Below are positions 1-33,917 of a stretch of DNA of 34,084 nt, piece after piece (the stretch's first letter is position 1; every line of letters begins with the position of its first letter). The notes beneath the pieces are model-generated. The model was not told the origin of the DNA and ran no database searches. It saw only the letters and a program-made list of their open reading frames with translations. Source of the DNA: a virus. Position numbers and translations under genes: made by a program. The DNA is taken from positions 1 through 34,084 of the IMG/VR virus record IMGVR_UViG_3300043331_002798; one strand, written 5' to 3'.

Positions 1-1200
1 ATGCCGGTCGCAAGGTTCACCAAGGACGTCGTCGAGAAGCTCCTTAAGGTGAAGGCCGATCGGCTCACCTTCGACGAGCAATACCCAGGGTTCGGGCTGC
101 GCACCTACAAGAGCGGCGCCGCACCGGTCTGGTTCGTGAAATACTCCGCCAAGGGAGTGCAGCGGCGGATGGTGCTTGGCTACGCCTCATGGGGCAACCT
201 GGAGGCCGCCCGCGACCAGGCGGGCACTGTGCGGGCCGAGGCCAAGTTGGGTAAGGACGTGGTCGCCGAGGAGCGCAAGGCGCGCGCCGAGCCACGGCCC
301 AAGACGTTGGGAGAGCTCGTCGAGCCCTACCTCGAGGACCGGGGCAAGGGCGATAAGAAGCTGCGCGCCCGCTCGCTCTACATCTATGACCTCTACCTGC
401 GCGATCACTGGAAGCCGCTGCACCGGAAGTCGATCCGCGACATCACCCGCCACGACATCCTCCCCATGCTCAGCGAGATGGCGCGCCAGCGCGGTGACGT
501 GACCTCCGACAGGGCCAAGTCCTGCCTGTCCAGGCTCATGCATTGGGCGATCATGGAAGGCTACCGCGACACGAACCCGCTTGCCGATATCGACAACCGC
601 GCATCGACCGAGGGCCGCGACCGTGTGCTGCGCGCAGACGAGTTGGTGGCGGTGTGGAACGCGGCGGGGGAGTGCGGGCTGTTCGGCAAGGCGGTCAGGT
701 TGCTGATGTTGACCGGCTGCCGCAAGACCGAGATCTGCGGGCTGATGTGGCCGGAGTTGAACCTGGAGCAGAGGCTACTGGAGCTGCCGGCGGAGCGCGT
801 CAAGATCAAGCGGCCGGTGATCGTCTGCCTGTCGGAGCCGGCGGTGGAGATCCTGGAGTCGGTGCCGGCCGTCGTCGGCCAGCCGCTGCTGTTCGGAAAG
901 TTCAGTGCCAGTCGACACATGGACGACCTGCGCGCCCTGGTGCCGGCGGTCGAGGGGTGGACCTTGCATGACATCAGACGCAGCTACAGCACGCATGCAA
1001 ACGAGAGGGGCCTAGCGCCGCCGCACGTGATCGAGTGCGCCCTTGGGCACCTCGTCGGGAACAAGGTGAGCCGGACCTACAACCGCGCCTTATACGAGGC
1101 CGAGCGCCGTCAGCTGGCCGACGTGTGGGCGCAGCACCTCGCCGACTTGGTGGCCGGCCGGCGTCCTAAGGTTGTCCCGCTGCGCAAGCCAGCCGCTTAA
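1..1200 (+). CDS. int: Tyrosine-family phage integrase
   Basis: This 399-residue protein would insert and excise the prophage by site-specific recombination. Residues 1-95 resemble the arm-type DNA-binding domain of P4/DUF4102-type integrases, with an FGLR motif near residue 31. Residues about 100-200 look like the SAM-like core-binding domain. The catalytic domain shows R241 in LTGCRKTEI, a probable K268, H323 and R326 in LHDIRR, H350 in ALGHL, and the nucleophile Y360 in SRTYNR, so all expected active-site residues are present. The ATG is the first base of the window, so an upstream start cannot be excluded. Its stop overlaps the stop of the convergent regulator gene by three bases. Length is normal for the family. 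The attachment site is not visible; it may lie just outside the window. Confidence 0.96.
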   Translation: MPVARFTKDVVEKLLKVKADRLTFDEQYPGFGLRTYKSGAAPVWFVKYSAKGVQRRMVLGYASWGNLEAARDQAGTVRAEAKLGKDVVAEERKARAEPRPKTLGELVEPYLEDRGKGDKKLRARSLYIYDLYLRDHWKPLHRKSIRDITRHDILPMLSEMARQRGDVTSDRAKSCLSRLMHWAIMEGYRDTNPLADIDNRASTEGRDRVLRADELVAVWNAAGECGLFGKAVRLLMLTGCRKTEICGLMWPELNLEQRLLELPAERVKIKRPVIVCLSEPAVEILESVPAVVGQPLLFGKFSASRHMDDLRALVPAVEGWTLHDIRRSYSTHANERGLAPPHVIECALGHLVGNKVSRTYNRALYEAERRQLADVWAQHLADLVAGRRPKVVPLRKPAA

Positions 1201-1943
1201 GCGGCCGCACCCCTAACAGCCCGGCCATCAGATGCGGCCTCGTCATGGGATGGAGAGGCGGTGAAGAGGTAGACTTTTGAAGGTGCGGCCGCGTATGTAC
1301 GACGAGTGAGGAGGCGCTCGCTCTCCATGATTTCGAGGGCCTTGCGCATGATCCCCGAGCTCACGCCGAACTCGCGCGCGAGGTCGCTCTCCTTCGGGAT
1401 GGGGGCATTAGGTTTCCATTGTCCACTGGCGATACGCGATACCAGCGCGTCGCGCACGTGCTGCGCAGACATCGCCTCAGGCTTTTCTCGCTGGCCTTGC
1501 CCTGATGGCGGGCGTACGTCGCCGTTCGCCTCGCTCTGCCTGATGGCCTCATTTATCGCTGCGATAGAAGTCTGGATCATCTCGATGTCGGGCTTGTACG
1601 GGCTATAGTGCTCCCCATAGGTCAGCCAGCCAAAGAGCTGGCGCATCATTGCGAGCCCGGCGTTGCTGGGACCAACCCCATAAAGCTCCTGCGCAATGGT
1701 CTGAAGGTAATCGAACAGTGCTCTGCGCCCCTTTGGTCCTTCCTCCCACGTCGACGAGTTCACGGCGTCCACGAACAGCGCCTCGGGGGAAAAACTGCGC
1801 TCCAGCGCTCGCTCAGTCTCTTGGGACAAATTGCGGTGGTTCGCTGCAGCCCGCTCCTCCAACCGTGCTTTCAATTCGGCCGGCACACGTAGGCTGATCG
1901 TCACCTGCGTTCCCGATTCGATCTCCTTCGTGGGTCGAGACAT
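1197..1943 (-). CDS. Putative phage regulator: RHH plus GntR-type winged helix
   Basis: This 248-residue protein is the likely lysogeny regulator, read leftwards opposite the early operon. Residues 12-50 have the look of an Arc/MetJ ribbon-helix-helix domain: a strand (TQVTISLRVP) followed by two helices with an NHRNLSQE turn. Residues 158-216 look like a GntR-family winged helix, with the recognition-helix pattern SDLAREFGVSSGIMRKALE and a following wing. Residues 52-135 between them are helical and unassigned. No C-terminal ligand domain of the usual GntR type is present. The gene faces an excisionase-like gene across a 129-base gap containing a palindrome that could be its operator. Seeing two separate DNA-binding domains in one chain is direct; the repressor role is inferred from position. 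Confidence 0.8.
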   Translation of the reverse strand: MSRPTKEIESGTQVTISLRVPAELKARLEERAAANHRNLSQETERALERSFSPEALFVDAVNSSTWEEGPKGRRALFDYLQTIAQELYGVGPSNAGLAMMRQLFGWLTYGEHYSPYKPDIEMIQTSIAAINEAIRQSEANGDVRPPSGQGQREKPEAMSAQHVRDALVSRIASGQWKPNAPIPKESDLAREFGVSSGIMRKALEIMESERLLTRRTYAAAPSKVYLFTASPSHDEAASDGRAVRGAAA

Positions 1944-2863: not shown

Positions 2864-3940
2864 ATGGGACACACAATGCTGCACGCACCCCAGATTGCCG
2901 ACGTTCTGCCCTTCCCCGAAGTCGCCCAGCGCATCACACGCGCTAGCGCCGCCCACATGCCCCCGCAAGAGGACGCCGGGCCGACGCTACCCAACGTGCC
3001 CACCTTTGACGACAACCTCAGGGCGGTCACCGCGGAGGGCGTTCTCGTCGTTCGATTCCAGCGCGCCTTGGACGCACTCCGGGACCGCCGCCTTGAGCAC
3101 GCTCACCGCGCCGTTCTTGCGGAGCTGCTGGAGGATATGGGCAGCAAGAACGGCAAGTGCTGGACGCTGCGGGAAACGCTGGCCGAGCGTCTCGGCATGA
3201 GCGTCAGGACCGTCAACAACGTGCTCTACGAGTTGCGAACATGGGGGTACGTCTGCTGGGAGAAACTCCCCAACCCACTCGACGACACCAAACTCACTTT
3301 CCACTACACGGTCGCCTTAGCGCTGAAGCCCCGGGCGGACCTGCAGGCAGACATCACCAGGGCCGTCGAAGCTCTTCGGAAAAGTACACCGCGGGCGGTG
3401 CATACACCGCGGGCGGTGTACACCGCGGGCGGTGTAGGAAAGTGCCCCGCGGGCGGTGTAAAAAAGCCGGCCACTCTTATTACTGAACCAAGGAAAGAAC
3501 CAGAAGAGACTCGGGCGCCTCAAAAAGGTGGTACAACTCAGAAATCAGACCCCAACGACTTCGAGCGCTTCTGGAGGGCATTCCCTCCTGGCCGCAAGAT
3601 CGACAAGGGCGACTGTCGCGACCTCTTCGACAAGATCGTCAGCGGTAAGCACAAGACGCGGCGTGTCTCGGCCGAGGAAATCATTGCCGCCGTCGAGCGC
3701 TACGCGGCTACCAAGCCCGACCCGAAATACACCCCGGCTGTCAAGACGTGGCTGAATGGTGGCCGCTGGGAGGACGACGTGTGCCAGCCGCAGCCCCGCA
3801 AGGCCGCCAACCCAGAGACACAGCTCGCCGAACTCGCCGCCAGCGATGCCGGCAAGGAGTGGATAGCCCGGCTCGGCCCTGAGGCGGGCATGCAGAAGCT
3901 CCGCGACATTGTCGCCAACGCGACGAAGGGCGGGCGTTGA
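2864..3940 (+). CDS. Replication initiator-like protein (lambda O type layout)
   Basis: This 358-residue protein probably opens the phage origin and recruits the helicase encoded next. Residues 65-135 form a winged-helix domain: WTLRETLAERLGMSVRTV supplies the helix-turn-helix, then YELRTWGYV the wing. Residues about 175-199 are translated from the palindromic iterons and so are low-complexity. Residues 230-303 hold the FERFWRAFPPGRK...W pattern seen near the C-terminus of many phage replication proteins, a likely helicase-loading part. The helicase ATG overlaps its stop by one base. The first ATG (2864) is used; a second at 2876 is possible. Family membership is by architecture, so the exact class is uncertain. 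Confidence 0.75.
   Translation: MGHTMLHAPQIADVLPFPEVAQRITRASAAHMPPQEDAGPTLPNVPTFDDNLRAVTAEGVLVVRFQRALDALRDRRLEHAHRAVLAELLEDMGSKNGKCWTLRETLAERLGMSVRTVNNVLYELRTWGYVCWEKLPNPLDDTKLTFHYTVALALKPRADLQADITRAVEALRKSTPRAVHTPRAVYTAGGVGKCPAGGVKKPATLITEPRKEPEETRAPQKGGTTQKSDPNDFERFWRAFPPGRKIDKGDCRDLFDKIVSGKHKTRRVSAEEIIAAVERYAATKPDPKYTPAVKTWLNGGRWEDDVCQPQPRKAANPETQLAELAASDAGKEWIARLGPEAGMQKLRDIVANATKGGR
3386..3459 (+). repeat. Four palindromic iterons inside the initiator gene (candidate origin)
   Basis: Four copies of the 16-base unit ACACCGCGGGCGGTGT lie at 3386-3401, 3404-3419, 3420-3435 and 3444-3459. Copies 2 and 3 are exact and abut; copy 1 has one change at its right end, and copy 4 starts GCCC instead of ACAC. 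Each full unit is itself palindromic, with 7-base arms around GG. Immediately downstream, 3460-3550 is much richer in A and T than its surroundings and strongly purine-biased. Iterons followed by an easily melted stretch inside the initiator gene is the layout of the lambda origin in gene O. Use as an origin is inferred. Confidence 0.65.
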
Positions 3941-6359: not shown

Positions 6360-6689
6360 ATGTCCGCCTTGACATGGCCCGAGCTGCTGGAACGCCAGCA
6401 GCCGATGAGCCCGGAGCGCATGCGCGCTGAGCTCCAATGGCAGCAGATCACCAACAAGGCCCCGGCGGGCCTGGAGCCGCTGCCTGCGAAGTGGTGGACA
6501 CCGCTCCCACCAGCGCCTCCGGCGCGCGCGCCGCGTGGTAACGGTAAGCGGAAGGCCCAGACGACGCATGTTGTGGCTGTCGAGCGGAAGGCCGGCCCAC
6601 GCTTGCTGAAACTGCCGGACGGCAGCCGGGTTGCAGGGTCGCGGCGTATCGCGCGTAGCGTCATCACCGTAACAAGGCCGGCAAGGTAA
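6360..6689 (+). CDS. Hypothetical early protein
   Basis: This 109-residue protein starts eleven bases after an AAAGGAGG ribosome site, one of the best in the window. The N-terminal half is helical (LTWPELLERQQPMSPERM); the middle is proline- and alanine-rich; the C-terminal half is basic with strands (HVVAVERKAGPRLLKL). No family is recognised. The high charge suggests nucleic-acid contact, which is only a guess. Confidence 0.7.
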   Translation: MSALTWPELLERQQPMSPERMRAELQWQQITNKAPAGLEPLPAKWWTPLPPAPPARAPRGNGKRKAQTTHVVAVERKAGPRLLKLPDGSRVAGSRRIARSVITVTRPAR

Positions 6690-6693
6690 CCAC

Positions 6694-6984
6694 ATGCGGC
6701 GACGCATCAACCACATCCTCAACGCCATCACCGCTCGGCTATCGCGCAGGTCCGGCCAATTGGCCGGACCTCGTGAGGGCGGCAAGACGGGAGGCAACGC
6801 GAATGTCGAGGTTCACCCAGCAGAACGCGCGCTGCTGGTTTTAGTCGTGCCGGCCGAGGTCTCGACCTTGGCAGAGCACGTCGTCGAGGTGCGGTTCCAC
6901 GATGAGAACGACGCCCGCGAGTTCGCCGCCTGGGTCGCGGTGAAGGCGGAGTGCCCGCATCACATTTACGAGGCGCAGCCATGA
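6694..6984 (+). CDS. Hypothetical early protein containing a long palindrome in its gene
   Basis: This protein has 96 residues if the ATG at 6694 is used; AAGGT lies about eight bases upstream. Residues 1-35 are basic and glycine-rich and include the stretch translated from a perfect 24-base palindrome (6748-6771). Residues 38-95 read like a compact alpha/beta domain (ERALLVLVVPAEVSTLAEHV, then ENDAREFAAWVAVKAE). The N-terminal third may therefore be untranslated or recently acquired. No family is recognised. The stop overlaps the next gene by four bases. Confidence 0.6.
   Translation: MRRRINHILNAITARLSRRSGQLAGPREGGKTGGNANVEVHPAERALLVLVVPAEVSTLAEHVVEVRFHDENDAREFAAWVAVKAECPHHIYEAQP
6748..6771. 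repeat. Perfect 24-base palindrome, first copy
   Basis: The half-site AGGTCCGGCCAA is followed by its exact reverse complement TTGGCCGGACCT with no spacer. The same 24 bases, extended to 26, recur at 33113-33138. The first copy lies within the early reading frame 6694-6984, the second in a gap between convergent genes. No T-run follows, so it is not a standard intrinsic terminator. Confidence 0.9.
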
Positions 6985-8940: not shown

Positions 8941-8969
8941 GGGCCGCCAGGAGACTGGCGGCCCTTTTT
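8941..8969 (+). terminator. Intrinsic terminator before the packaging genes
   Basis: The stem has 9-base arms GGGCCGCCA (8941-8949) and TGGCGGCCC (8956-8964), loop GGAGAC, then five T bases at 8965-8969. It points rightward, so it ends any transcript entering from 7993-8515 and insulates the terminase genes, or is a second antitermination target. The rest of 8889-9065 holds no gene; an eight-A run lies at about 9045-9052. Confidence 0.85.
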
Positions 8970-20718: not shown

Positions 20719-21649
20719 TGGCCGAAATCAGCGATCTCAATGTCGCCGATGCCAGCAACACGGCACGGTTTCCAGAGGGCATGTCGCCGGGTGCGGTCAA
20801 TGACGGCGCCCGGGCGCTGGAGGGCATTCTGGCGCGGTGGTTCAAGGACACGAACGGCTCGCTCACCTCTTCGGGTTCGAGCAACGCCTTCGCGGTCACG
20901 TCCAACCGGACCATCTCGTCTATGGTCGATGGGACGCGCCTTTCGTTCAAGGCAAACCACAGCATCACGGGTGCGGCGACGCTGAACCTCAATGGTCTCG
21001 GCGCGAAAGACATTCGCCGGTTCAACGCTCACCGCTAGCACAGGGAGATATCATCTCGGGGCAGCCCGTCGATGTGATCTATTCCGCGTCGCTCGACGAC
21101 TGGATCATGATTTCAGCTCTGGCCGCGTTGGTGGGGTCCATGTTCGTGGACCTTGGCGAGAATGCCTCGCCAGGCAACCCGGCAGCCAATACAGGGCGAC
21201 TGTATGCGCTTGACGAAGCCGGCGTAACAAATCTGGCCTACCGGCGATCCGACGGCGATGTGACGCTGCTGCGGGGGCCGACTCAGGCGGAGATGGAGAA
21301 CGCCGCAAACTCCTTCGACATGTTCGTTACCCCGGGGTTCCAGCACTTCCACCCGGCGCATCCGAAGGCAGTGGGCCGCGGCGGGTCATCGGGCGGCATA
21401 GTAGGCACGGCCTTCAACGTTGCCAGCATCGTGCGGGGCTCCGCAGGCAACTACACAGTTACGATGACCAACGCGATGGCCGATACCAACTACGCGATTG
21501 TCCCCGGCCTTATGTCGAGCGCGGGCGAAAAGTGGATCAGGGCTCTCCCTGCATCAGCATCAGCATTCGCGGTGGAGATCGGAAACACCTTCAACAACGG
21601 CCGCGACGATCAGGATTTTAGCTTCGCTGTGTTTGGCGACATGGCTTGA
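20718..21649 (+). pseudogene. Tail fibre gene broken by a one-base frameshift
   Basis: The first part (ATG 20718, sharing one base with the hub stop) reads MAEISDLNVADASNTARFPEG, a typical fibre start. It runs 106 residues to GAKDIRRFN, then hits TAG at 21036. The next frame continues without gap from SPLAQGDIISGQPVDVIYSA to a stop at 21647-21649. Adding one G at about 21027 turns AACGCTC into AACGGCTC and joins the two as ...RFNGSPLAQGD, the sequence expected of intact relatives. The restored protein would have 310 residues, ending in a beta-rich tip (VTMTNAMADTNYAIVPG). It is either a real mutation or a sequencing error; no slippery site is seen. Confidence 0.8.
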
Positions 21650-22263
21650 TCGTGGATTGGCCACTCGGCGGTCTTGATGGCAATGAGCTGGTAGCCTCTA
21701 TGGACCTCACGCATACAGTCACCGAAGGATTGGAAGAAGGCATCGATTGCATGCTGGGGACGCATGTCCGAGGGGGCATCAGTCTCCCAAAGGTAGTCGT
21801 CCCAGATCAGCACCCCGCCGACTCTGAGCAGCTGCCAAGCCAGCACGGTATCGGCAAGCACGGCACCCCGGCTGTGATCGCCGTCGATGTAGACCACGTC
21901 ATATCGCCGTTTCTCAGTGACGAGCTGATCAAGGACAGCCGCGCTGCGGCCGCGCCGCTTCGTGAGCCGATGACGATAGCGGCGAATGTTGTGATCGAAT
22001 TTCGCGCTTCGCTTTGGTGGGAACGGGTCCACGCAGGTCACGCGCGACTTGAGAAATGTCTCAAGGAAGAACAGCGCGGAGCGACCCTCGAAGCTGCCGA
22101 TTTCGAGGACATCGAAACTCCGATCGGCCAAATGCCCAACGGCAGCAATCCAGTGCTCGCAATGGGGACTTGTCCAGTCGTGACTAAAAATGGGCGTGCC
22201 GCCATGTTGAAGCCGGTGCAGGGCAACCTGGATGCGGGTCGCGATATGCTGGTGCAGGCGCAT
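21610..22263 (-). CDS. Class I SAM-dependent methyltransferase on the opposite strand
   Basis: This 217-residue protein is antisense to the fibre region. Motif I is DVLEIGSFEGRSALFF (residues 51-66), the acidic loop follows in RVTCVDPFP (74-82), then YDVVYIDGDHSRGAVLAD (121-138) and LRVGGVLIWDDYLW (146-159), matching the Methyltransf_24 pattern often linked to sugar modification. Its 3' end overlaps the fibre stop by 40 bases, and its start is ten bases from the next fibre ATG, so its promoter must lie within that fibre gene. Sampled 60-base lines have 55-63% G+C, against about 65-70% nearby. This fits an acquired accessory gene expressed separately from the virion genes. Confidence 0.85.
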   Translation of the reverse strand: MRLHQHIATRIQVALHRLQHGGTPIFSHDWTSPHCEHWIAAVGHLADRSFDVLEIGSFEGRSALFFLETFLKSRVTCVDPFPPKRSAKFDHNIRRYRHRLTKRRGRSAAVLDQLVTEKRRYDVVYIDGDHSRGAVLADTVLAWQLLRVGGVLIWDDYLWETDAPSDMRPQHAIDAFFQSFGDCMREVHRGYQLIAIKTAEWPIHDQAMSPNTAKLKS

Positions 22264-27063: not shown

Positions 27064-29444
27064 TGGCTCGTTACGAGATCACCGGACCCGACGGCGGCCG
27101 TTACGAGGTCACCGCACCGGACAGCATGTCGCAAGCCGATGTGTTGGCCCGGTTCCGGCTGCAGACCGGCGACGGCCGCGCGCGGGGCTGGGGCGAGTAT
27201 GCTGGCGGCCTTACGCGGCAGGCATTGCAAGGCCTGTCCTTCGGCTTCGCGGACGAGGCCGAGGCCATGTTGCCGTTCCTGCGGGAGCAGGGCGAGGGCT
27301 ATGACGAAGCCGTCACCCGCATCCGGCGCAGCAACGAGGAATTTGCCCGGGACAACCCGGGCGCGTCCCTGACGGCGCATGTCGTGGGCGGCCTGCCGCA
27401 ATTCGTGGGGCCGCTCGCGGCAGTGACGGGCCTGGCGCGCGCCGGACGCTGGGCAACCGAGGGCTCGTCCCTGCTGCGGACCATGGGCCGCTCCGCGGTG
27501 CTCGGCGGCGCGACGGGTGCCGTGTCCGGGTTCGGCTCGGGCGAGGGCACGCCAATGGAGCGGCTGGGCTCGGCCGTAGAAGGTACGGGCGTGGGCGCTG
27601 GGATCGGCCTCGCCGCTCCGCCGGTTGTTGGCGGGGCGATCCGGGCACTCTCCGCCACGGGCCGCGCGATCGGCGCCACCGGGCGCGCCTTGCGCTCGGG
27701 CGGTGCGCGTCCGAGCGCCGACTATGAGGCCCCTGTTCTGCCTGTCGGACGTCCGGTCGAGGGCGCGTCGTTCCTGTCCGCGAGTGGGCCGCCAGCGCCG
27801 GAGGCCTTCGGCGCGCAGGAAGGTGCGCTGCGTATGATCGCCGACTGGATCATGAGCGCTGGCGGCACCATCGACGATGTCGAGCGGGCCTGGGCGGCCG
27901 TCCAGCAGTCGCGTGTGTTCCACGGGAGCGGCGAGGCGCTCAACGCGCAGACGCTGGCCGAGATCTATCCGCCGCTGCAGCGCCTGCTGCGGGCCGGCGC
28001 CAGCAGCTATCGCGAGGTGGGCGAGGACGTGACCCGCTTCCTGCAGGCACGCCATACGGGGATCCTGCCGCGCGGCGCCAGCGAGGGAGACCTGGCACAG
28101 CGGGGCCTGCCGACACGCGAGCGGTTCCTGGCGGGGCGCACGGTTGGGGAGAACCGTGAGCAGTTCGGTGTGCAGCTCGGCACGGGCGAGAACAACGTGT
28201 CGCCGACCGGAGCTCTGGGGCGCATTGTCGACGCCACGAAGCGGCTATTCCGGATCAAGGATGCCGAGTTTCACGGGCACGCTTCCACGGGTGGCAAGAC
28301 CTCTGAAGAAATCCTGGCGGCCATGCAGGAGGCCAGCGCCCCAGCGTACCGCAAGGCATATGCGGTCGGCGACGTGGTGTCGGTACGGCCGGCGCTCAGC
28401 CCCATCATTCAGAGGTGGCAGAACGAGGCGGCGCAGTACGGGAGCGGTTATCGCAGCATGATTGGCAAGGCGGCCAACCGCTTCGTTGACGACAGCGGCA
28501 AGCCCGTGCGCAGCCTGCGCGCCTTCGACAAGGCCAAGCAGGAGATGGACGACGAGATCGGCGTTTTCCTGGCCAAGGGCCGCAACTTCGAGGCCGGCGA
28601 GCTCACCAGGCTCAAGAACGAGATGATCGACGCCGTCGACAAGATCCAGCCGGGCAAGCTCGGCGACCTCTATTCGGAGGCGCGCGGCATCTACGCCAGG
28701 GGCGCGCGCGACCGGGATATTCTGGAGGACTTCAAGCGCGCGTGGAAGGACGATCCCGACGAGGTGCTGAAGCGCTACGACGGCCTTGCGTCGGACGGTG
28801 AGAAGAAGCTGGCCCGGCTCGGCATCGTCTGGGGGATGGAAGCGGAGAACGCCAGCAAGCGCGCAACGCAGGATGTCACGCTTGGGTTTGACGTAAACAG
28901 GGCCGAGCGGATGTTGACGTTGATCGGCCAGCGTATGCGCGCCGGAGAGGCCGACGCCGCAGACGTCATGCGCCGGTTCGGCACCTACATTGCCGGCGAG
29001 CAGGAGATGGTGCGCGGGACGGCGCGGACGGCGATCGGCGGCTCGATGACGGATCGCAACCTGCAGGACGCCTTGTCGCTGGGCGGCATGGAGATCGTCC
29101 AGAACGTCCAGAGCTTTGCCAACATCTGGCGCGGCTCGACCTCGCTCTTTGAGCTCGGCCGCGCTGTGCTGGAGAAGATCGTGGATCGTGCGTTCGGGCT
29201 GTCTGCCGATAGGGCCCGGGAGATGTCGCGACTGCTGCTCACCGCCAACCCGGACGAGATCACGGCCATCATCGCACGTCTCAGGCTGACGATGTCGACG
29301 AGCCGCATGGCGCGCTTCAACGAGCTGATGCAGCAGGCGCAGCTCGCCATCGGGGCGCCGTCGATCGGCGCTGGCGGCAACCTTGGCGGCGCGATAGCCG
29401 GCGCGCCGTCGGCCACCCTGTCAGGCGGACCAGTGAGCCTGTAA
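27063..29444 (+). CDS. Large ejection/internal virion protein
   Basis: This 793-residue protein shares one base with the previous stop. It starts with a twice-repeated motif, RYEITGPDGG then RYEVTAPDS, encoded by two 24-base direct repeats (27069-27092 and 27099-27122, three mismatches). This motif is common at the start of phage ejection-type proteins. A helix region with LTRQALQGLSFGFADEAEAM follows, then glycine/alanine-rich hydrophobic stretches between residues 100 and 220 that could enter membranes. Residues 380-640 are long charged helices (FDKAKQEMDDEIGVFLAKGR). A membrane-active entry role is inferred from architecture and neighbours. Confidence 0.7.
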   Translation: MARYEITGPDGGRYEVTAPDSMSQADVLARFRLQTGDGRARGWGEYAGGLTRQALQGLSFGFADEAEAMLPFLREQGEGYDEAVTRIRRSNEEFARDNPGASLTAHVVGGLPQFVGPLAAVTGLARAGRWATEGSSLLRTMGRSAVLGGATGAVSGFGSGEGTPMERLGSAVEGTGVGAGIGLAAPPVVGGAIRALSATGRAIGATGRALRSGGARPSADYEAPVLPVGRPVEGASFLSASGPPAPEAFGAQEGALRMIADWIMSAGGTIDDVERAWAAVQQSRVFHGSGEALNAQTLAEIYPPLQRLLRAGASSYREVGEDVTRFLQARHTGILPRGASEGDLAQRGLPTRERFLAGRTVGENREQFGVQLGTGENNVSPTGALGRIVDATKRLFRIKDAEFHGHASTGGKTSEEILAAMQEASAPAYRKAYAVGDVVSVRPALSPIIQRWQNEAAQYGSGYRSMIGKAANRFVDDSGKPVRSLRAFDKAKQEMDDEIGVFLAKGRNFEAGELTRLKNEMIDAVDKIQPGKLGDLYSEARGIYARGARDRDILEDFKRAWKDDPDEVLKRYDGLASDGEKKLARLGIVWGMEAENASKRATQDVTLGFDVNRAERMLTLIGQRMRAGEADAADVMRRFGTYIAGEQEMVRGTARTAIGGSMTDRNLQDALSLGGMEIVQNVQSFANIWRGSTSLFELGRAVLEKIVDRAFGLSADRAREMSRLLLTANPDEITAIIARLRLTMSTSRMARFNELMQQAQLAIGAPSIGAGGNLGGAIAGAPSATLSGGPVSL

Positions 29445-29461
29445 GGTAAGCATACGGATAA

Positions 29462-29488
29462 GAAAGAGTCCCAATTTGGGACTCTTTC
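29462..29488. terminator. Strong two-way terminator
   Basis: Arms GAAAGAGTCCCA (29462-29473) and TGGGACTCTTTC (29477-29488) are perfect 12-base complements around ATT. The hairpin lies 17 bases after the ejection-protein stop and 8 bases beyond the stop of the leftward 41-residue gene. The CTTTC end on both strands gives a partial T-run each way, so it can serve both. Confidence 0.8.
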
Positions 29489-32542: not shown

Positions 32543-32827
32543 ATGTTCGGGCTACCGGTGACATGGTTGGCGGGAGCCGCGGCGGTCTGCGTCGGTCTCT
32601 TCTTCGGCGCCGTGCAGCTCCGGCATAACGCCAAGCTGGCAGCTGCGCACAGCACGGGGGTGGCGGTTGGTAAAGCGGAGTCGGCAGCAACAGCGCTGGC
32701 GTCAGCATCCAAAACGGCTCAGGCCGAACGCGAAGCGACTGAGGCCACGCCTCTTCCGGCTGATAAACAAGCCATTATAGAGCTTTGCCGCAAGTCGGCC
32801 AGCTGCAGGGACAGGGGGAAGAGATGA
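32543..32827 (+). CDS. Inner-membrane spanin (Rz-like)
   Basis: This 94-residue protein has one N-terminal membrane segment (residues 6-26, VTWLAGAAAVCVGLFFGAVQ) and then a periplasmic helix (KAESAATALASASKTAQAER). The end DKQAIIELCRKSASCRDR is a pattern seen in other phage Rz-like proteins. GGAG precedes the ATG. The stop overlaps the lipoprotein gene by four bases. With its partner it would fuse inner and outer membranes at lysis. The periplasmic part is short compared with lambda Rz. Confidence 0.8.
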   Translation: MFGLPVTWLAGAAAVCVGLFFGAVQLRHNAKLAAAHSTGVAVGKAESAATALASASKTAQAEREATEATPLPADKQAIIELCRKSASCRDRGKR

Positions 32828-33045
32828 CATTCAGGATGACGGCCGTCGTGATGATTGTCATGACAAGCGCCACAGGCTGCGCCACGACGCAGGGCACGGA
32901 AACGGTCGTCGACACCTTCTGCCTGACGGCGAAGAAGATCAGGTGGAGCACGGAGGACACGCCCGAAACGATCCGGCAAGCAGAGATCCACAATAAGACG
33001 ATCGACGCGCGCTGCCGCGGGGCTGGTAAGATCGCAGGCCGGTGA
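32824..33045 (+). CDS. Outer-membrane spanin lipoprotein (Rz1-like)
   Basis: This 73-residue protein begins in an ATGA overlap with the Rz-like gene. The signal MTFRMTAVVMIVMTSATGC ends in a lipobox with C19 as the lipid-bearing residue. The mature part is about 55 residues with two more cysteines (TFCLTAKK and DARCRG). Size, lipobox and overlap with a membrane-anchored partner identify the outer-membrane spanin. It implies a Gram-negative host. It is the last rightward gene before the palindrome cluster. Confidence 0.85.
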   Translation: MTFRMTAVVMIVMTSATGCATTQGTETVVDTFCLTAKKIRWSTEDTPETIRQAEIHNKTIDARCRGAGKIAGR

Positions 33046-33075: not shown

Positions 33076-33138
33076 TGACGTGTCTGCACGTGTCTTGACA
33101 CGTCACGCATGCGAGGTCCGGCCAATTGGCCGGACCTC
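33076..33138. repeat. Palindrome cluster with second copy of the long palindrome
   Basis: Three palindromic elements lie end to end between convergent genes. At 33076-33105 arms TGACGTGTC and GACACGTCA enclose 12 bases with a further ACGTGTC copy (33088-33094) that also pairs with the right arm. CGCATGCG follows at 33106-33113. Then a perfect 26-base palindrome (half-site GAGGTCCGGCCAA) spans 33113-33138, its inner 24 bases identical to 6748-6771. It may serve as a two-way terminator, a binding array or a recombination site. Confidence 0.85.
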
Positions 33139-33156
33139 TTCCGTTACGGTTTTGGT

Positions 33157-33345
33157 CTACTCGGAACGCCCGCCGCTCCCGAGATCGCCCAGGATGCCCG
33201 ATTTGGGCGGCGGAGGCTTCTGCGGGTCGGCGATCTCTGCCCAGTAGCGGGCATACTGAGCGAAGCGCTTGCGCAGGGCTGGCGGCTCGGCATCGACCTC
33301 AGCGATGGTGAGCGCCTCAAAGAGGGCGGCGATGCGCTGCATCAT
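33157..33345 (-). CDS. Small leftward protein of unknown function
   Basis: This 62-residue minus-strand protein starts at the first of two adjacent ATG codons (33345), overlapping the upstream stop by four bases, with GGAGG about ten bases upstream. It is helical for residues 1-40 (MQRIAALFEALTIAEVDAEP, ALRKRFAQYARYWAEIAD) and ends in a proline/glycine tail (KPPPPKSGILGDLGSGG). No family is recognised. It is the last gene of the leftward operon and points into the palindrome cluster. Confidence 0.65.
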   Translation of the reverse strand: MMQRIAALFEALTIAEVDAEPPALRKRFAQYARYWAEIADPQKPPPPKSGILGDLGSGGRSE

Positions 33346-33917
33346 TCGCTCGCCTCCTCGGCTGCCTTGGGCGTCTTTGGCGCCTTGGTCGGGTAGCGCG
33401 CGGCTGCCTCCTCCGCCTTCCGGCGCATCTCGTCCCACGGGACCAACTCCTCGGTCTCGCAGGCGTAACTCGTGAGCAACGGGCTTTTCGCGCCAGCACC
33501 GTAGACGAGGCCGCGTATGATAGCCTCCCTCGTGTGGTCCAAGACCCGCTCCCGCTCGACCATCTCGTCGTCTTTGACGCTCTCCGGGTTCTCGGTCACG
33601 TCGTTGAGGTAGCGGGACATTGCCTCGCGGTAGACCAGGGCCAGCGACAACGTCTCGTCCAGCGTTCTGGGCTCGGTGAGCAGGATGACATCGGCGAGGC
33701 TGTCTGTGCGATTGAGGGTCCTTTTGTTGACCTCGCACAGTAGGTGAGCATCGTTCGATGCTGCGATCTCGCGAGGGGTGTAGACGCCGGCCAGGCTCTT
33801 GCCCTGCTGCTGCGCCTCCATCTTGGCGTCGTGGGTGAGGCGCCACAGGGCCTCAAGGTCGGCAAGCTGGGCCGCCAGATCGGCGAGACCCTTGCCCTGG
33901 GTGAAGGAGATGGTCAT
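33342..33917 (-). CDS. Leftward helical protein of unknown function
   Basis: This 191-residue protein starts in a four-base overlap with the gene upstream. Helical segments are visible: DLAAQLADLEALWRLTHDAK, then SLADVILLTEPRTLDETLSL with LVYREAMSRYLND, then EMVERERVLDHTREAIIRG. The end is lysine/alanine-rich (AARYPTKAPKTPKAAEEASE). No family is recognised. The tight ATGA coupling on both sides shows a three-gene operon read opposite to the virion genes, so it is probably expressed at another time, possibly in lysogeny. Confidence 0.7.
   Translation of the reverse strand: MTISFTQGKGLADLAAQLADLEALWRLTHDAKMEAQQQGKSLAGVYTPREIAASNDAHLLCEVNKRTLNRTDSLADVILLTEPRTLDETLSLALVYREAMSRYLNDVTENPESVKDDEMVERERVLDHTREAIIRGLVYGAGAKSPLLTSYACETEELVPWDEMRRKAEEAAARYPTKAPKTPKAAEEASE

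Follow-up and report, generated by a model that had tools for sequence, protein, structure and literature searches.

Identical perfect palindromes at two distant sites of a temperate phage genome: a candidate symmetric 3′-end hairpin

Results

Why would a temperate phage carry the same long palindrome in its early region and again at its right end? The window, i.e., the whole stretch of 34,084 bases analyzed here (an IMG/VR virus record), contains one perfect palindrome of 22 to 26 bases twice. Inspection of the sequence confirmed both copies of the original prediction: site 1 is a 24-bp perfect palindrome at positions 6748 to 6771 (AGGTCCGGCCAATTGGCCGGACCT), and site 2 is a 26-bp one at 33113 to 33138 (GAGGTCCGGCCAATTGGCCGGACCTC, GAGGTCC...GGACCTC). 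The core common to both comprises 24 bp, or 25 to 26 bp depending on orientation, whereas the flanks are not shared by the two sites, which lie 26 kb apart. This core has perfect dyad symmetry around an AT-rich center, and all six reading frames are open across it. A chance origin had been judged very unlikely, and the statistics agree: with up to 3 mismatches allowed, the core matches only sites 1 and 2 in the window and nothing in 100 dinucleotide shuffles. Both sites also rank among the window's three longest perfect hairpins, with arms of 12 (site 1) and 13 (site 2) nucleotides, compared to longest arms of 8 to 12 in 30 Markov shuffles. Arms of 12 also arise in the shuffles; one such palindrome alone is thus not extreme, but the identical pair is. 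The palindrome pair is a real, nonrandom element.

As anticipated, site 2 occupies the gap where the virion operon meets the leftward operon, with a stop codon on either side. The rightward virion/lysis operon ends with a gene for an Rz-like spanin (32785 to 33045, plus strand; PHROG 1275, E 2.6e-13), whose stop codon is 67 nt away from the palindrome. On the other side, 18 nt separate it from the stop codon of a small leftward gene of 62 amino acids (33157 to 33345, minus strand; ...YARYWAEIADPQKPPPPKSGILGDLG...; coding score, +32.3), next to which the leftward operon continues with a 191-amino-acid gene of no known family (33342 to 33917, minus strand; coding score, +108.6); these scores are codon statistics trained on the large genes. 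Site 2 is thereby placed between two opposed 3′ ends. Immediately to its left lies a second dyad at 33077 to 33106 (GACGTGTCTGCACGTGTCTTGACACGTCACGC), made up of the inverted repeat ACGTGTC-TT-GACACGT and one direct copy, GACGTGTC, which could be a regulator site.

Exact scans of IMG/VR and of the 84,980 bacterial and archaeal species genomes in GTDB yielded four occurrences of the core in three records, i.e., two carriers besides the window; the scans may have left out records very near the window's own. The IMG/VR carrier is a contig of 30,423 bases (G001) from an otherwise unrelated phage, with a single copy of the palindrome. There, the same 22-bp core is located 4 nt past the stop codon of a homolog of the small leftward gene (72% at the amino acid level) and has an opposite-strand frame on its far side; this rightward frame facing the palindrome is a fragment without known family. 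When frames of more than 40 amino acids in the window were compared with G001, the only convincing shared proteins were the product of the small gene and a 26%-identical integrase, the rest being marginal short matches, and no terminase related to that of the window was found on G001. DNA homology between the two is confined to 33115 to 33333 and begins at the palindrome. Such a boundary would suit a recombination or module-exchange joint, with the palindrome as a short anchor at which right-end modules are swapped, a reading we consider very improbable: the same boundary would result from transfer of a gene whose 3′ end is the palindrome, and no recombinase lies near either site, the integrase at 1 to 1200 being 5.5 kb from site 1. 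A core site of that integrase was likewise rejected as a candidate, with both sites far from its gene and no tRNA in the window.

Over the small gene, the window and G001 share 69% DNA identity, and the bases that separate its stop codon from the palindrome do not align; in spite of this divergence, 22 of 22 core bases are kept and, center included, are identical in the three copies (both window sites and G001). The corresponding chance estimates are 0.65^22 (∼8e-5) if sites are independent and 0.65^11 (∼0.009) if paired arms change together. Because identity, and not mere pairing, is conserved, a protein-binding site is the main rival explanation. The palindrome would then be bound sequence-specifically, as DNA, by a symmetric protein (a phage or host regulator, a roadblock, or a nucleoid or partition protein) and would link the right end with the early region; the dyad with its AT-rich center is well suited to this. 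We regard this as somewhat unlikely. No promoter is recognized near site 1 or site 2, the latter lies between 3′ ends, and a sigma-70-like scan, weak for unidentified hosts, found no such site anywhere in the window. The obvious candidate binder, proposed originally, is the RHH-GntR protein (1197 to 1943, minus strand). It has no homolog at E 1e-3 on the 30.4-kb G001 contig, possibly incomplete, which does carry the palindrome, and the sharing of little beyond the small gene and a distant integrase speaks against a common phage-encoded binder as well. With neither a G001 homolog nor a promoter-like site in the window, the RHH-GntR version is not supported; another host or phage protein may be the binder. 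A specific form of this alternative, in which the 22-bp dyad is read by a protein that both unrelated phages find in their hosts and works as a roadblock or anchor separating the late and leftward small-gene operons, with reuse in the early operon, appears unlikely. If a protein does read the palindrome, control of the early region and of the right end would be linked, in a phage group of which no member has been studied. The RHH-GntR protein itself is an unusual fusion of an N-terminal ribbon-helix-helix-like part (PF01402/PF03869, below cutoff) and a GntR winged helix (PF00392, E 5.6e-13).

The GTDB carrier, a planctomycete metagenome-assembled genome, holds the one exact match in the 84,980 species genomes, as a single copy inside an open frame (L004, 5089 to 5361), which reads KGPANWPDL in this perfect version. 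A paralog (L100) has an imperfect version, GGTCCGGCGAATTTGCCGGACC, at the same place, so the planctomycete copy looks independent and probably arose in place, and it was set aside on that account. Also set aside was a 9.6-kb virus contig (L007), where the core sits within a field of TTGGCCGGAT repeats and has a different outer stem. In that contig, TTGGCCGGAT units are clustered at 1780 to 1930, near its end, in direct and inverted orientation. No complete palindrome turned up in phages from GenBank or plasmids from PLSDB, the plasmids giving only weak, partial matches (E about 9), and neither set contained a relative of the small gene; single-protein searches with the small gene and with the endolysin gave no matches. 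Two relatives in virion genes (G002 and G003; terminase ∼60% identical) are contigs that end before site 2 or begin after site 1. A literature search for the palindrome sequence showed no relevant use among the matches listed. The suggested host repeat, which as a REP-like element would occur in many copies, thus met with a single exact match in a single genome, a provisional result that covers sequenced genomes; on these scans, the palindrome as a repeat of known host genomes is not supported. A small mobile or copied palindrome, similar to RPE or REP elements and entering new places without function for the phage, would account for two copies 26 kb apart without shared flanks, and its six open frames would allow it to sit in genes, in line with its presence in phages and one planctomycete frame. 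Nevertheless, it is distinctly unlikely, given the mere four exact occurrences in three records, the single copies in G001 and the planctomycete genome, the probable in-place origin of the latter, and the absence of any visible target-site duplication or longer element.

Site 1 differs in setting. It begins 58 nt past the stop codon of ORF 6360-6689 and 54 nt into ORF 6694-6984 (plus strand), i.e., in an open frame of a codirectional operon and not at a clear operon end or convergent junction. Its assignment to an early reading frame needs correction: the first ∼30 codons, which include the palindrome, score −2.2 and carry no coding signal, whereas the rest, from about 6787 on, is coding-like (+27.3 bits). 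The start is provisional, and no convincing alternative start was found. A frame lengthened by an insertion would be expected to look like this, which is a point in favor of the mobile palindrome. An IMG/VR scan with the early proteins returned 80 DnaB-helicase loci, but the proteins encoded around site 1 had no relatives there. Elsewhere in the left part of the window, four near-tandem copies of a partly palindromic unit of 16 to 24 nt (GTACACCGCGGGCGGTGT...) occur at 3384 to 3465, inside ORF 2864-3940; given the HTH_36 domain of this ORF, the repeats might be iterons of a replication origin. Further to the right, a possible methyltransferase gene (21610 to 22263, minus strand) stands on the opposite strand among tail-region genes, with weak matches to rhamnosyl O-methyltransferase and FkbM models only.

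As RNA, the palindromes are predicted to form hairpins of −21.1 (site 1), −24.0 (site 2), and −19.5 kcal/mol (G001), and the folded regions around them have z scores of −4.0 to −5.2 against shuffles. Stable GC-rich hairpins in this range (−19.5 to −24.0 kcal/mol, predicted) are one hallmark of canonical intrinsic (rho-independent) terminators; the other, a U-rich tract directly following, is absent on five of the six hairpin sides (each strand of site 1, site 2, and the G001 copy) and partial on the plus strand of site 2. The earlier statement that there is no T-run is accurate for those five sides, including both strands of site 1 and the minus strand of site 2, but not for the site 2 plus-strand tail, TTCCGTTACGGTTTT / UUCCGUUACGGUUUU, with 8 T in 15. 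A scan of the window for terminators listed neither palindrome, and no Rfam family matched the window at gathering score. The conclusion that simple termination does not explain the palindrome is nonetheless too strong, since a symmetric hairpin 4 to 18 nt past a stop codon and between opposed 3′ ends fits a bidirectional terminator, and U-less terminators have been described, though contested. The 3′ ends are opposed at site 2 but not at site 1, and in G001 the frames are opposed, the rightward one being the family-less fragment.

An IMG/VR scan for the arms with any four-base center recovered three more contigs (L013, L014, and L015) with the same 9-bp arms and another loop. Their hairpins are at or beside predicted gene 3′ ends, and the L014 one, located between opposed frames, is followed by a classical T-run; as these frames are mostly without known families, the evidence is supportive, not strong. 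The window also has a T-tailed terminator-like hairpin at 8941 to 8964. Another long symmetric hairpin, with an AATTT center (GAAAGAGTCCCAATTTGGGACTCTTTC), is found at 29462 to 29488, directly past a gene ending at 29444; no hairpin with arms of at least 9 is present in the relatives G002 and G003.

Discussion

The sequence, symmetry, position, and predicted hairpin-forming ability of the palindrome, as well as its sharing with G001, are established directly. Its position in two phages, a few nucleotides past a stop codon and between opposed 3′ ends at site 2 or opposed frames in G001, together with its symmetry and predicted stability, leads us to favor a hairpin acting on the transcripts of both strands. 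Specifically, the palindrome may be a symmetric 3′-end hairpin (a bidirectional terminator or 3′ stabilizer, mostly without U-tract) that travels with the small gene, a tentative proposal to which we give slightly less than an even chance. As a 3′-end element, it would function as an RNA hairpin from either strand, and its perfect symmetry would therefore let one DNA element serve both. At site 2, between the ends of the rightward late/lysis operon and the leftward small-gene operon, it could stop RNA polymerase, or cap and protect transcript 3′ ends, from both sides, so that antisense read-through would be limited. Its movement as the 3′ terminus of the small leftward gene would explain why an otherwise unrelated phage has both. 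Site 1 may be the element used again downstream of ORF 6360-6689 in the early operon, where it would partially terminate transcription or serve as an mRNA processing or stability hairpin. Termination or 3′ protection, and everything regarding site 1, we infer.

Several observations weigh against the 3′-end hairpin. Five of the six sides have no U-tract, and U-less termination is disputed: such terminators were described in high-GC mycobacteria, and contrary results exist (PMC12288462). The 22 core bases are identical in three copies, while a pure hairpin could drift by paired changes. The same phage has a T-tailed hairpin at its disposal, and site 1 lies inside an open frame without a clear operon end. 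Should the palindrome be a U-less bidirectional terminator, nature would offer in it a compact case of full symmetry, passed along with a gene among unrelated phages, with which one could test whether U-tract-free hairpins end transcription in GC-rich hosts.

Among known systems, phage operator and stoperator sites are dyad-symmetric DNA sequences repeated at separate places in one phage genome. The palindrome resembles them as a repeated dyad and differs in that no promoter was recognized nearby and no shared regulator was found in G001. REP and Rickettsia palindromic elements are palindromic and may sit in open frames; here, the repeat is only 22 to 26 bp long, is present twice in the window and once in G001, and forms no family in known genomes. 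The U-less "I-shaped" terminators, proposed for mycobacteria and contested (PMC12288462), have in common with the palindrome a GC-rich hairpin without poly-U, and site 2 and the G001 copy are less than 50 bp from a stop codon. Convergent genes are known to share symmetric terminators, which are under stronger constraint than one-way ones (PMC5381666). Unlike these bidirectional intrinsic terminators, the palindrome is without U-tract on five of six sides, has fully identical distant copies, and is not convergent at site 1, but it shares with them the symmetric GC-rich stem and, at site 2, the location between opposed 3′ ends, shortly past the stop codons.
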